Assembly (NCBI GenBank): GCA_003724185.1
Contig: RHGM01000001.1
Span: forward strand, 434,001 to 498,000
Direction: 5' to 3'
Source of the DNA: Porphyrobacter sp. IPPAS B-1204
Lineage (GTDB): Bacteria; Pseudomonadota; Alphaproteobacteria; Sphingomonadales; Sphingomonadaceae
DNA length: 64,000 bases
Shown: piece after piece, positions 34,017 to 49,506 of the stretch
How the letters are laid out: every line of letters begins with the position of its first letter
How positions within the stretch are numbered: the stretch's first letter is position 1
Notes under the pieces: model-generated
The model's input: only the letters and a program-made list of their open reading frames with translations
Told to the model about the DNA's origin: nothing
The model's database searches: none
Program-made: the position numbers and the translations under genes

Positions 34017-35237
34017 ATGGCCCAGCCCCAGAAAGTCGTCCTCGCCTATTCGGGCGGTCTCGATACCAGCGTCATCGCCAAGTGGCTGAGCGTGGAACGC
34101 GGGCTTGAGGTGGTGACCTTCACCGCCGATCTGGGCCAGGGCGAGGAAATCGAACCCGCCCGCGCCAAGGCCAAGGCGATGGGCATCCCCGACAATCACA
34201 TCTTCATTGAAGACCTGCGCGAGGAGTTCGTGCGCGATTTCGTCTTCCCGATGATGCGTGCCAATGCCCGCTATGAGGGCGACTATCTGCTCGGCACCAG
34301 CATCGCCCGCCCGCTAATTTCCAAGCGTCTGGTCGAAATCGCGCACCAGACCGGCGCCGATTTCATCGCCCACGGCGCGACCGGCAAGGGCAATGATCAG
34401 GTGCGCTTCGAACTCAGCGCCTATGCGCTCGACCCGGACATCAAGGTGATCGCCCCGTGGCGCGAATGGGATCTGACCAGCCGCACCGCGCTCATCGCAT
34501 GGGCCGAACAGCACCAGATCAGCGTGCCCAAGGACAAGCGCGGCGACAGCCCGTTTTCGACCGACGCGAACCTGCTGCACACCTCGTCAGAGGGCAAGGT
34601 GCTGGAAGACCCGTGGGAGGAAACCCCCGACTACGTCTATTCGCGCACGGTCAATCCCGAGGACGCGCCCGACGTGCCGGAATACATCACGGTCGATTTT
34701 GAACGCGGTGACGGTGTAGCGTTGAACGGCGAGGCGATGTCGCCCGCCACATTGCTCACGGCGCTCAATGAGCTTGGCCGCAAGCACGGCATCGGTCGGC
34801 TTGATCTGGTCGAAAACCGCTTCGTCGGCATGAAGAGCCGCGGGATGTACGAAACCCCCGGCGGCGAAATCTACGCCCGCGCCCATCGCGGGATCGAGCA
34901 GATCACGCTGGATCGCGGCGCGGCGCATCTGAAAGACGAGCTGATGCCGCGCTATGCCGAGCTGATCTACAACGGCTTCTGGTTCAGCCCCGAGCGCGAG
35001 ATGCTTCAGGCGGCGATTGACCATTCGCAAGACAAGGTCACCGGCACCGTGCGCCTCAAGCTCTACAAGGGCCTCGCCAGCGTGGTGGGTCGCAAGTCGC
35101 CCTATTCGCTCTACTCCGAGGCCCATGTGACCTTTGAGGACGATGCGGGCGCTTATGATCAGAAGGACGCGGAAGGCTTCATCAAGCTGAACGGGTTGCG
35201 CCTGCGCCTGCTGTCCCGCCGCAACCGCGACGCCTGA
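34017..35237 (+). CDS. argG: Argininosuccinate synthase
   Basis: Joins citrulline and aspartate with ATP to argininosuccinate in arginine biosynthesis. The 406-residue product has the ATP-pyrophosphatase P-loop [10 protein letters not shown] at residues 10-19, the [13 protein letters not shown] citrulline/aspartate region, and the [15 protein letters not shown] segment typical of the family. The ATG at 34017 follows AAGGA (34004-34008) and is the family start; a much longer open frame upstream is spurious. A long gene-free region follows. Confidence 0.98.
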
Positions 35238-35270
35238 AACCATCGCAAGAAGCGGGGACAACCGAGTCGG

Positions 35271-35288
35271 GCCGCTGTCCGCAGCGGC
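35271..35288 (+). terminator. Hairpin after argG, possible terminator
   Basis: GCCGCTG (35271-35277) and CAGCGGC (35282-35288) form a perfect 7-bp stem with a 4-base TCCG loop, 33 bases after the argG stop. There is no T-run, so it may be a processing or weak termination signal. Confidence 0.45.
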
Positions 35289-35394
35289 GTGGTGCCGATA
35301 ATGTGACAGTCTGGCGGCGGTTTCGTTCCCGCTCCCCCTCCGGTTCGCGACAAATGCGACGAACCGTTGAGTTATCCACGCGTGTCCACAGGCC

Positions 35395-36005
35395 AAATCG
35401 CCCTTGGTGGAAAACTCGCGGCTCTGGATGTTGTCAGATCGCCGATTCAGGCGCACTTTCAACTTGTCTTCGGGACACGAAGCAACCGGAACGGAAAGCC
35501 GCAAGGCCTTGAAGTTACCGGGGTTTTGATCCCAAGGATGGCGGTGACATCTGTCCACGCGCTCATCGAGGGACGGCATGCAGGAGGCTTCGGCTGAATG
35601 CAAGCAGGCTCGCTGATGATGGGAGCGACGCGGTGGCACCGGACAGGTCAGGAACCTGGCCGAACAGAAGTGCAGCGGAAACGGCGAAAGCCCCCAAGCC
35701 GCCGCTCTTCGGGACGGTAAAGGGACAGGGCCTCGGCCAAGCGAGCGCGCAAGGCAGCGATAATCGAAGACTTCGGGCTTCGGTGGACGCAAACCAGCGC
35801 AGGAGCGAAAGCCGGATGCCGGCGCGAGCGCCGGTGACAAATCTCTGGCAAGGCCAGTCGCAAGACCGGGCAGCGAGAGGCTAGACATCGGGCGCCAAGC
35901 ATGGCCCGCAGCAGATGAGGCAGAAGGTTCGCCGGACGCCGCAAAAGCGAGGGTCATCCACACGCCGGTGAGAGTGGGGTCGGCAGCAATGCCGGCCCCA
36001 TTTGC
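35395..36005 (+). ncRNA. Candidate long structured non-coding RNA
   Basis: No credible coding frame exists between argG and the RlpA gene. In 35641-35880 my hand count gives G 88, C 69, A 62 and T 21 (9% T), a strand-asymmetric base composition like that of large catalytic RNAs. Many short hairpins are visible on the plus strand: CAGGT/ACCTG (35644-35658), GGC-GAAA-GCC (35683-35692) inside AGCGG/CCGCT (35674-35706), CCGGCG-CGAG-CGCCGG (35819-35834), CTGG/CCAG (35845-35857), GTC-GCAA-GAC (35857-35866), and a 10-bp stem with a GCAA loop (35976-35999) that could close or terminate the RNA. The conserved cores of RNase P RNA and tmRNA are not found. Both ends given are estimates. Confidence 0.5.
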
Positions 36006-36202
36006 ATTGCGGCGAAGGCCACCACGCTGCCCAATCCGCGAGTCGCAACGTCAGAACCCGGCAGTTTGCGCGATCGCCATCACCATGCGCCGCAACGCTT
36101 CGTCGCATTTCAGGCTCGACTCGTTCCCCACCGGAACCCTCATGTCGACGAAACGCTAACCTGGTTTGCCTTTTGCAAGACCGCCGATCTATCGGCCCCG
36201 CC

Positions 36203-36754
36203 ATGCGGAGGGAAAATCGCATAAACGGCCTTGGTGCCCACAGCCTCGCCCGGCGGAGCGTGCAGGCGCTTGCTTTGGCTGGCCTGTTCGGCCTCGCCCC
36301 GATCGCAGCCTCGACCGCCGCTGCCCCCGATCCGGCCGCCGTGGTCGATACCGCAACCAGCGTCGCCATGATCGAATTGGTGCCGGTGCAGCCCACCGCT
36401 GATGTCACGGTATCCGTGCCGGCCGAGCAGCCCGCTGCGCCCTCGGCCCCTCAGGAAACCGTGCTGGGCCAGGGCAGCGCATCCTATTACGCCGCCAAGT
36501 TCAACGGCCGCCGCACCGCCAGTGGCGAGCGGTTCGACAACGCCGAAATGACCGCCGCGCACCGCACCCTGCCTTTCGGCAGCCGTGTGCGCGTCACCAA
36601 TCCCGCCAATGGCCGCAGCGTGGTCGTCCGCATCAACGACCGCGGCCCTTTCACCCGCGGCCGCCTGATCGACGTAAGCCGCGCCGCCGCCGAGGAACTC
36701 GGGATGGTCGCGCGCGGCCACGCCAATGTGGAACTGGCGCTGATCGAAGGCTGA
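36203..36754 (+). CDS. RlpA-like double-psi beta-barrel septal ring protein
   Basis: A 183-residue exported protein. After a signal segment (VQALALAGLFGLAPIAAST) comes an Ala/Pro/Val-rich linker, then the RlpA-like DPBB domain from about residue 95 (GQGSASYYAAKFNGRRTASG, MTAAHRTLPFGSRVRVTN, GRSVVVRINDRGPFTRGRLI, DVSRAAAEELG). RlpA proteins are septal lytic transglycosylases acting on naked glycan strands; there is no C-terminal SPOR domain here, so septal targeting is less certain. The start is the ATG at 36203. Confidence 0.9.
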   Translation: MRRENRINGLGAHSLARRSVQALALAGLFGLAPIAASTAAAPDPAAVVDTATSVAMIELVPVQPTADVTVSVPAEQPAAPSAPQETVLGQGSASYYAAKFNGRRTASGERFDNAEMTAAHRTLPFGSRVRVTNPANGRSVVVRINDRGPFTRGRLIDVSRAAAEELGMVARGHANVELALIEG

Positions 36755-47767: not shown

Positions 47768-48511
47768 TCAGTCGCCAACCACCAGCGCCATCGCGCCCAC
47801 CTCGCCGATCCAGCGCGCTGCAACCCCCCAGACCTGCGCGATCACCTCTGGCGTCAGCGCCGTTTGCGGCGGCCCCTGGGCGATCAAGGCCCCGTCTTTC
47901 AGCACCAGAACGTGATCGGCGTGGTTCATCGCTGCGGCCAGATCGTGGAGCACCACCACCACCCCCTGCCCGCTGGCAGCACAGGCCTTGAGATGCGCGA
48001 TCAGGGCGAGCTGGTGCGCCAGATCGAGCGCGGCGAGCGGTTCGTCGGCGAGGATCCAGCGCGGTGTCCCCGCCAGCACCCGCGCCAGCAGCACCCGCGC
48101 GCGTTCGCCGCCCGAAAGCTGGCTGACCGGGCGATGACGCAGCGCGCCAAGGTCTAGCGCCGCCAGCGCGGCCTCCACCTGCGGCCCGCCGCGATCGCGC
48201 CACGGCAGGCGGCCTAGCGCCACCAGCGCCTCCACCGCCACATCCCAGGCGATATCGGGCGATTGCGGGAGATAGCCGATTGCCTGCGCCCGCCCGCGCG
48301 GGGTCACATCGGCAAGCGCCTCACCATCCAGCATCACCCGACCCGTCGCCGGTGCCAGCAGTCCCGCCAGCCCCAGCAGGGCCGATGACTTGCCCGCACC
48401 ATTGGGGCCGAGGATGGCAGTGATCCTGCCGGGCTGCAGCGCTGCCGAAAGGCCGGTCACGACCGCCCGCCCCCCGCGCACCAGCGTCAGATCGTCGGCG
48501 ACAAGGCTCAT
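47768..48511 (-). CDS. ABC transporter ATP-binding protein (FecE/BtuD-like)
   Basis: A 247-residue ATPase of the iron-siderophore/cobalamin/heme importer class. Walker A is GPNGAGKSS (about 36-44), the signature QLSGGERARVLLARVL, Walker B WILADEPLAALD and the switch histidine in VVVVLHDLAAAMN. Start ATG at 48511 overlaps the permease stop (ATGA). It is the last gene of the three-gene operon binding protein - permease - ATPase. The transported compound (vitamin B12, siderophore or heme) cannot be told from sequence. Confidence 0.9.
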   Translation of the reverse strand: MSLVADDLTLVRGGRAVVTGLSAALQPGRITAILGPNGAGKSSALLGLAGLLAPATGRVMLDGEALADVTPRGRAQAIGYLPQSPDIAWDVAVEALVALGRLPWRDRGGPQVEAALAALDLGALRHRPVSQLSGGERARVLLARVLAGTPRWILADEPLAALDLAHQLALIAHLKACAASGQGVVVVLHDLAAAMNHADHVLVLKDGALIAQGPPQTALTPEVIAQVWGVAARWIGEVGAMALVVGD

Positions 48512-49506
48512 AGCCGCCCCCGGCGCATGCGCAGCAACAGCCACAGGAAAAACGGCGCGCCGATCAACGACAGCGCAATGCCGAGCCGCAGTTCCGTCAC
48601 CAGCGGCAGCACCCGCACAACGCTGTCGGCCGCCAGCACAAGGCACGCCCCGGCCAGGGCGCTGGGCAGGATCAGGCTTGATGGCAGTCGGTCAGTGAAG
48701 GGGCGCACCAGATGCGGCACCACCAGGCCGACAAAGCCGATGATCCCGGCCACCGCCACGCCTGCACCAACCGTCAGACCGATCCCGACCACCAACAGCG
48801 CCAGCAGCCGCCGAGGCTCCATGCCGAGCGACCGTGCCGCCTCCTCGCCCAATGTCAGCGCATCGAGGCTGCGCGCGGCCAGTGCCAGCACACCGATCCC
48901 GGCGATGGTCAGCGGGGCGGCAATCGCCACCTCGCGCCACGAACGGTCGGTCAGCGCGCCGTTGAGCCACAGCACGATCTCGGACAGGGCAAAGGGGTTG
49001 GGCGCAAGGGTGATCGCCAATGCCGTGAGCGCGCCCGCAAGGCTCGCCAGCATCAGACCCGCCAGCGTGAACAGCGCGATTCCCCCGCCCGCGCCGCCTG
49101 CCGCATCACCCGATGTGCGCCCGGCAATCAGCGCGAGCAGCGCCATGCCCAGCCCTGCCCCTGCCAGAGCCAGCAGCGGGAGGCTCCACGGCGCCCACGC
49201 AGGCGGAATGGCCGCGCCCAGCCAGAAGCTCGCCACCGCGCCCAGCGCCGCCATCGGGGCGATGCCGAACAGGCCCGGATCGGCGAGCGGGTTTCTGAGA
49301 TAGCCCTGCATCGCGGCGCCCGCAGCTCCCAGCCCCGCGCCGATCACCACCGCCAGCACCGCCCGCGGCAGGCGCAGTTCGGCGAGGATCAGCATCGTGT
49401 TGCCGGGGCCGAAATCGCCCGGCGCAATCCACACGCGGCCAGCCAGCAGCGACAGCGGCACCAACAGCGCCAGCAGCGCGGCGAAGATCAGGCTGGCGCG
49501 GTTCAT
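48508..49506 (-). CDS. FecCD-family ABC transporter permease
   Basis: A 332-residue inner-membrane permease with about ten helices, of the BtuC/FhuB/FecCD family. Typical segments are LRLPRAVLAVVIGAGLGAAG, NPLADPGLFGIAPMAALGAV, WLNGALTDRSWREV and IIGFVGLVVPHLVR. The start at 49506 overlaps the stop of the binding-protein gene, and the end overlaps the ATPase gene, so the three genes are translationally coupled. Confidence 0.92.
   Translation of the reverse strand: MNRASLIFAALLALLVPLSLLAGRVWIAPGDFGPGNTMLILAELRLPRAVLAVVIGAGLGAAGAAMQGYLRNPLADPGLFGIAPMAALGAVASFWLGAAIPPAWAPWSLPLLALAGAGLGMALLALIAGRTSGDAAGGAGGGIALFTLAGLMLASLAGALTALAITLAPNPFALSEIVLWLNGALTDRSWREVAIAAPLTIAGIGVLALAARSLDALTLGEEAARSLGMEPRRLLALLVVGIGLTVGAGVAVAGIIGFVGLVVPHLVRPFTDRLPSSLILPSALAGACLVLAADSVVRVLPLVTELRLGIALSLIGAPFFLWLLLRMRRGRL

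Follow-up and report, generated by a model that had tools for sequence, protein, structure and literature searches.

The interval between argG and an rlpA-like gene in Porphyrobacter sp. IPPAS B-1204 raises the question of what it encodes, if not a protein. A preliminary description had reported about 965 bases without a credible gene and proposed either an unclassified structured RNA or a very diverged member of a known RNA class. The gap measures exactly 965 bases (positions 35238-36202 of the window, the whole stretch of 64,000 nucleotides that was analyzed), with the argG stop codon ending at 35237 and the rlpA-like gene starting at 36203. Across 16 close sequences, one of them that of the window itself, no open frame is conserved. 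The frame at 35367-35597, which overlaps a conserved promoter, is open in 9 of the 16, and four other frames are intact in only one or two of them. A protein-coding gene was ruled out, as the frames are not conserved.

Known RNA families were searched as well. Neither the RNA region nor 14 homologous loci matched any of the 4227 families of Rfam 15 at the gathering score. Within the region nothing credible appeared at E values up to 10; the best match was CC3552 with 17.2 bits and an E value of 3.9, against a gathering score of 50. Otherwise Rfam matched one tRNA in the window and an unrelated manganese (yybP-ykoY) riboswitch near argG in another genus, which flanks the module at locus L162 (3377-3557, minus strand, 49.6 bits). 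RNase P RNA (RF00010) and the alphaproteobacterial two-piece tmRNA (RF01849) were rejected as candidates. The genome's real RNase P RNA lies at C6:1111879-1112312 (237.7 bits) and its real tmRNA also lies elsewhere in the genome (207.3 bits), while ARAGORN detected no tmRNA in the window. For these two RNAs, the idea of a strongly diverged representative of a known class thus lacks support. The RNA of the argG/rlpA interval would be a family missing from Rfam 15. Among the matches listed from open-licence PMC literature, no paper describes an RNA between argG and an rlpA-like gene. In the retrieved excerpt of PMC5869019, Erythrobacter litoralis is given as having no apparent gsrN-like gene.

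The RNA had been proposed on the grounds of a low U content and GNRA loops. The base counts given for 35641-35880 are exact (88 G, 21 T, 62 A and 69 C). By themselves they are weak evidence, as T-poor stretches are not rare in the window: 50 of its 6376 overlapping 240-base stretches contain 21 T or fewer. A second run very poor in T (at most 21 per 240 bases) occupies 48411-49041 and on. Minimum free energy folding, compared with 20 shuffles, was only mildly better than expected on the plus strand (z -2.18) and no better on the minus strand (z 0.04). Because low T is not rare and single-sequence folding is only mildly better than shuffled sequence, the comparison of related loci had to carry the case.

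Complete modules, with everything between the DnaA-like boxes and the 3' hairpin, were recovered at 131 loci, a number that counts some genomes twice (as genome handle and as named contig). These loci provided 109 distinct sequences of 566 to 712 bases, which were aligned from sequence alone. Removal of those at least 88% identical left 88 sequences, from which sets of 70 (A3) and 60 (A4) were hand-chosen for spread. The strongest covarying column pairs mostly stack as Watson-Crick helices; unpaired columns of the variable 5' part score high too. More than a dozen covarying helices were found on the plus strand, distributed over several domains (Table 1). In the arm (35536-35648, 70 sequences) 83.7% of the cells pair, compared with 35-39% when the partners are slid, and the covariation score is 0.447 versus 0.229 after shuffling. 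As the arm structure was derived from the same sequences on which it was counted, a split of 40 and 48 sequences served as a control. When helices were learned on the 40 sequences closest to that of the window and counted in the 48 others, 83% of the cells paired, versus 40% when slid. Three of the six hold-out helices are part of the final model (84, 88 and 88% paired). The other three, 35646-50/35657-61, 35497-500/35926-29 and 35586-90/35809-13, are outside the model and reach 88, 70 and 74%. Since they still pair well, percentage paired alone separates rival helices poorly. Twelve arm, middle and 3' helices of the model, recounted on the same 48 rows, are 69 to 97% paired.

Table 1. Positions of the RNA module, its promoter elements and its neighbors in the window; transcript, promoter elements and helices are predictions.
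Feature	Positions	Strand	Basis or observation
argG (argininosuccinate synthase), upstream neighbor, outside the RNA	34017..35237	+	Pfam PF00764/PF20979
DnaA-box-like site 1, TTATCCACG	35372..35380	+	1 mismatch to TTATNCACA (E. coli consensus)
DnaA-box-like site 2, GTGTCCACA	35382..35390	+	2 mismatches to E. coli consensus
DnaA-box-like site 3, inverted, TTTTCCACC on the minus strand	35406..35414	-	2 mismatches to E. coli consensus
Predicted -35 element TTGTCA	35431..35436	+	TTG conserved
GANTC (GATTC), CcrM-type site within the promoter	35444..35448	+	Sequence motif, between -35 and -10
Predicted -10 element CACTTT, consensus CANYNT	35454..35459	+	Promoter comparison
Predicted structured-RNA transcript, ~540 nt, 5' end inferred	35466..36008	+	Promoter geometry, covarying helices, 3' hairpin
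Long arm	35542..35641	+	83.7% of cells paired; 28/30 pairs change two-sidedly; model R2, 94 bits
Arm helices	35542-49/35634-41, 35558-61/35624-27, 35563-67/35618-22, 35570-72/35609-11	+	
Further arm helices	35575-77/35604-06, 35579-81/35600-02, 35586-89/35592-95	+	
Long-range pairing of 35552-56 with 35814-18, pseudoknot through the arm (tentative)	35552..35818	+	93% paired vs 38% slid
Middle domain	35645..35815	+	88-95% paired vs 29-35% slid
Middle-domain helices	35645-49/35729-33 (or exclusive local hairpin 35646-50/35657-61), 35733-37/35811-15, hairpin 35769-72/35776-79	+	
Alternative pairings: local hairpin 35819-24/35829-34 or 35831-36/35886-91	35819..35891	+	98% and 93% paired
3' domain: 35891-95/35962-66, 35902-07/35951-56, 35926-28/35931-33	35891..35966	+	Covarying helices
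3' terminator-type hairpin, 14 pairs, then GCATT	35972..36008	+	Most conserved part; 100% of cells paired, 60 sequences
rlpA-like gene (DPBB_1), downstream neighbor, outside the RNA	36203..36754	+	Pfam PF03330

In the 3' domain 95.3% of the cells pair in 60 sequences, versus 35-46% after sliding of the partners, and two-sided change is seen in 19 of 36 pairs. The hairpin noted at 35976-35999 in the preliminary description is present and extends to 14 pairs (35972-35985/35990-36003). Ten of them are invariant in the 60 sequences and the top four show compensatory changes; the T run that follows is short in the own genome. Over the helices, G-U cells (1291) exceed A-C cells (163), with 269 versus 0 contributed by the terminator stem, which identifies plus as the RNA strand. 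The helices claimed here are those of Table 1. They covary more strongly than shuffled or slid controls, as expected of structured noncoding RNAs in general. The Rfam search and the alignment of related genomes, both suggested in the preliminary description, therefore favor its first proposal: the RNA is conserved in relatives, its helices covary, it has no conserved coding frame, and no family matches the region at the gathering score. Judged from the comparative evidence, a structured noncoding RNA is almost certainly encoded at this locus by a gene of its own.

Some parts of the fold are less clear. The middle domain is ambiguous, as its rival pairings 35645-49/35729-33 and 35646-50/35657-61 reach 95% and 91% paired. 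The long-range pairing changes on two sides in 2 of 5 pairs, and the pseudoknot it would form is a tentative lead rather than a result. The alternatives at 35819-35891 are 98.3% and 96.1% paired in the 60 sequences of A4. They are mutually exclusive because both use 35831-35834, and a conformational switch at this place is possible, again as a lead and not a result. Mutual exclusion likewise occurs between the two pairings of the middle domain.

The module is bounded by a rigid 5' block, consisting of three DnaA-box-like sites followed by TTG-17-CANYNT, and by the conserved 3' hairpin. From these the RNA is predicted to start near 35466 and to end near 36008. The promoter block, which occupies 35372-35459, begins upstream of the extent given earlier (35395-36005). 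This block, the feature with the furthest conservation, had been overlooked.

The geometry of the block was measured in 115 of 116 promoters. Distances between the boxes and from the boxes to the promoter were left free within wide limits, while the promoter pattern itself required the 17-bp spacing and an A or T at the sixth base of GTGGAWAA. The TCCAC-to-TCCAC distance from site 1 to site 2 is 10 in 108 of the 115, site 2 and site 3 are 21 apart in 112, and site 3 lies 48 from the start of the -10 element in 108. The combined promoter pattern occurs in 107 of 396 genomes of the order, and a reversed-pattern control yielded one match. The -10 element matches TATAAT poorly, and the core is predicted to be a weak promoter of the sigma70 type. 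Box 1 and box 3 are near-inverted repeats. Their third base (n=109) is A in 86, G in 18, T in 4 and C in 1 for box 1, and A in 59 and T in 50 for box 3. An RNA helix formed by the two was rejected, as 53 of the 109 would be unable to pair there even with G-U. For this reason the boxes fit protein sites better than an RNA helix.

GcrA prefers GANTC sites between the -10 and -35 elements. Among 114 promoters chosen without requiring GANTC, 83 harbor this motif between -35 and -10, mostly at either of two positions 7 bp apart, and 31 have none in the spacer. It was found in 37 of 54 diverse promoters versus 30 of 728 control windows. The sets of 114 and 54 exclude two promoters, out of 116, that had been selected with GANTC in the pattern; the control windows were drawn from 56 diverse promoters, perhaps including these two. 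A GcrA gene is present in the own genome, and GcrA is described in the retrieved text of PMC7987155 as acting with sigma70 at promoters with methylated GANTC. The promoter of the RNA hints at replication control, which may link the function of the RNA to the cell cycle.

The distribution of the module was assessed with searches of different reach. A DNA search gave matches in 32 of 61 genomes, the own included; all belong to the own genus and many are partial. The 3' hairpin (up to three mismatches) was located in 99 of 396 genomes of the order, at a single place per genome, and its carriers represent 18 of 84 genera, all within the own GTDB family. An exact-pattern scan of named species genomes retrieved 86 stretches, and the genera named among the 80 matches listed are Erythrobacter, Porphyrobacter, Qipengyuania, Altererythrobacter, Parerythrobacter and Allopontixanthobacter. 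The hairpin is present, for example, in E. longus DSM 6997. The RNA is thus found in named, cultured strains of Erythrobacter, Porphyrobacter and Qipengyuania. Of 126 loci, 117 have argG as the immediate upstream gene; for the remaining nine the upstream DNA does not exceed 816 bases. One genome of the same genus (G003, one contig, 99% complete) was negative for both the hairpin and the promoter patterns and also for R1, a promoter model based on sequence alone. At another locus (L150, genome G226) the module is missing, and a gene that is rlpA-like by eye follows about 140 bases after argG. The gap there holds a short stretch resembling the 3' half of the terminator and looks like a deletion of the module. 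The RNA is therefore absent or unrecognizable in some species.

More distant relatives were sought with R1 in 61 genomes without the promoter pattern, seven of them from other families of the order. Matches at E values of 0.1 or less were obtained in 14 of the 61. Of the 14 matches all but L239 were read. Nine loci were judged genuine on reading, each showing a T-poor stretch followed by a hairpin of the same style, with a T content of 10 to 19% in those measured. These nine include L237 and L242, which are identical to L154 and L162, and L247, which has incomplete boxes. Four others (L246, L248, L249 and L250), one of them from another family, were rejected on reading as chance matches. Applied to 385 genomes of the class, R1 gave six matches, four in the own family (the own genome included) and two outside. 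In the latter (G500:C7:351664-351715 and G650:C6:59011-59075) the box block alone matches (model positions 8-58), and these are perhaps other DnaA-controlled sites or origins. Both R1 searches used stricter filters that miss weak matches.

Thirteen far loci were compared, three reached through argG (L161-L163) and ten as R1 matches, with L162 and L242 being the same module. The fetched stretch contains argG in eight of the 13. It is absent from L241, L243, L244, L245 and L247, of which L241, L243, L245 and L247 were scanned for their neighbors. These are DUF2254, short-chain dehydrogenase and PurL-type, DUF4197, or dioxygenase genes. R2, the model of the arm, gave nothing above background at the far loci, its best score (L240, 18.6 bits) being equal to that of a control stretch. 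Because no arm was detected there above background, the far elements may be a different RNA with a common style of promoter and terminator. The promoter-and-terminator architecture is thus widespread in the family, while evidence for the arm is confined to Erythrobacteraceae and their nearest relatives.

Several readings other than an independent, trans-acting RNA gene were considered. A cluster of DnaA boxes at one place per genome would suit the chromosomal origin of replication. However, parS lies about 1.1 Mb away in G030 (five exact sites within 5 kb) and about 1.2 Mb away in G018 (two one-mismatch sites), and the origin-type change of sampled GC skew is also far away in G030 and G021, albeit as weak and noisy signals. 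The parS distance was taken from G030 and G018; the sites of G022 are scattered. Given the distance in these two relatives, it is extremely improbable that the locus is oriC. The parS 16-mer TGTTTCACGTGAAACA has no copy in the window. With zero or one mismatch it is dispersed chromosome-wide in G000 (22 places), G030 (47) and G003 (63), and only two or three sites occur in G012, G018, G021, G022 and G026. As a rule parS sites are not spread over a whole chromosome in this way. The position of argG just upstream in most loci would be in keeping with a cis-acting leader or trailer of argG or rlpA. This reading is nevertheless very unlikely, considering that the RNA has its own promoter, that its 3' hairpin ends about 200 bases ahead of the rlpA-like gene, that the module of L162 is placed about 540 bases further from argG, and that 5 of 13 far loci are without argG. 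A protein-titrating sponge of the CsrB type, with GGA motifs as binding sites, would explain the purine-rich body, in which GGA is 1.25-fold and CCGGA 3.3- to 4-fold enriched over mononucleotide shuffles. Yet CGGA reaches only 1.17-fold in the far modules relative to the expectation from shorter words, and conservation resides in the helices and not in repeats. The CsrB/RsmZ candidate was rejected, as the host genome (the one examined) contains no CsrA gene, which makes this reading highly improbable.

Two further alternatives deserve more weight. The 5' block might mainly be a DNA site for the control of DnaA, similar to DARS or datA, in which DnaA oligomers on the boxes change their nucleotide state and transcription is incidental or remodels the site, the RNA promoter being secondary. 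Facing boxes are separated by 24 bp and direct boxes by 10 bp, compared with 14 and 12 in E. coli DARS1 as placed by its location and motif. The boxes are also held at a fixed distance to the promoter in 108 of 115 cases, and the transcribed part is under strong structural selection. The spacing itself is rigid, and three boxes with one facing two others correspond to the core topology of DARS in E. coli, as far as given in the retrieved text of PMC5742627. On balance the DNA-site reading is unlikely. Alternatively, the product could be a base-pairing small RNA comparable to CcnA, whose exposed loops bind the leaders of cell-cycle mRNAs. The promoter is of a cell-cycle type, and CcnA and EcpR1 offer alphaproteobacterial precedents, according to the parts of the sources retrieved. 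However, the RNA is very long, is conserved over whole helices and lies away from the origin, unlike CcnA of Caulobacter crescentus, which sits in the replication origin (PMC8959179, excerpt). This reading is considered rather unlikely.

Overall, the locus is best explained, with a probability of about 0.62, as a gene in its own right whose product is a structured RNA of roughly 540 nt that acts in trans; DnaA and, in most species, CcrM and GcrA would control its transcription. In this mechanism DnaA, bound to the three boxes, would set the activity of the weak promoter. In most species CcrM would methylate the GANTC inside the promoter and GcrA would read it as a second input linked to replication; from both inputs the RNA would be made in a window of the cell cycle. 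The transcript would end at the 3' hairpin. Control by DnaA, the binding of which is judged by motif, is probable, and control by GcrA/CcrM is an evenly balanced call. Action in trans is likely, because modules of the same build adjoin other genes in some genera. The least certain step is that the RNA would bind protein and work as an RNP and not as a simple antisense RNA. Selection acts on many helices over hundreds of bases and not on one exposed seed, which is the reason for this proposal; the odds for the RNP type over the antisense type are about level. An RNP or scaffold role is our first guess and base-pairing the second. In a speculative and unlikely extension, the RNA would be a family-wide machine gated by DnaA, with a promoter switched by DnaA and by the methylation of newly replicated DNA, and with feedback of the RNP on replication or division. 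If true, it would introduce a novel type of component to the bacterial cell cycle. The exclusive pairings at 35819-35891 might give it an internal switch, and its body would evolve rapidly outside Erythrobacteraceae, with promoter and terminator remaining constant.

Few large structured RNAs are known from bacteria. RNase P RNA resembles the RNA described here in its large fold and low U content (10.8% in RNase P RNA and 11.5% in the body of this RNA), but the genome has a separate RNase P gene. OLE, GOLLD and ROOL are likewise large multi-helix noncoding RNAs of limited bacterial groups with functions not obvious from sequence (PMC12286853, as far as retrieved). The RNA of the argG/rlpA interval differs from them by its lack of a match in Rfam, by its other hosts and by the five far loci with different neighbors. 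With promoters controlled by GcrA and CcrM (PMC7987155, excerpt) it shares GANTC in the core promoter and a GcrA gene in the genome, a likeness known here from sequence; unlike in those promoters, GANTC takes two alternative positions 7 bp apart. CcnA is also an alphaproteobacterial noncoding RNA of the CtrA/GcrA cell-cycle circuit with DnaA boxes nearby (PMC8959179, excerpt). Its own feature is a CCCC loop acting on the ctrA and gcrA leaders, whereas the RNA described here is long, multi-domain and not at the origin, and has its own promoter with DnaA-like boxes at a fixed distance. The cores of E. coli DARS1 and DARS2 share with the 5' block three DnaA boxes, here recognized by motif, of which one is opposed to two (PMC5742627, excerpt). 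The spacing differs, and here the boxes are locked to the promoter of a structured RNA.
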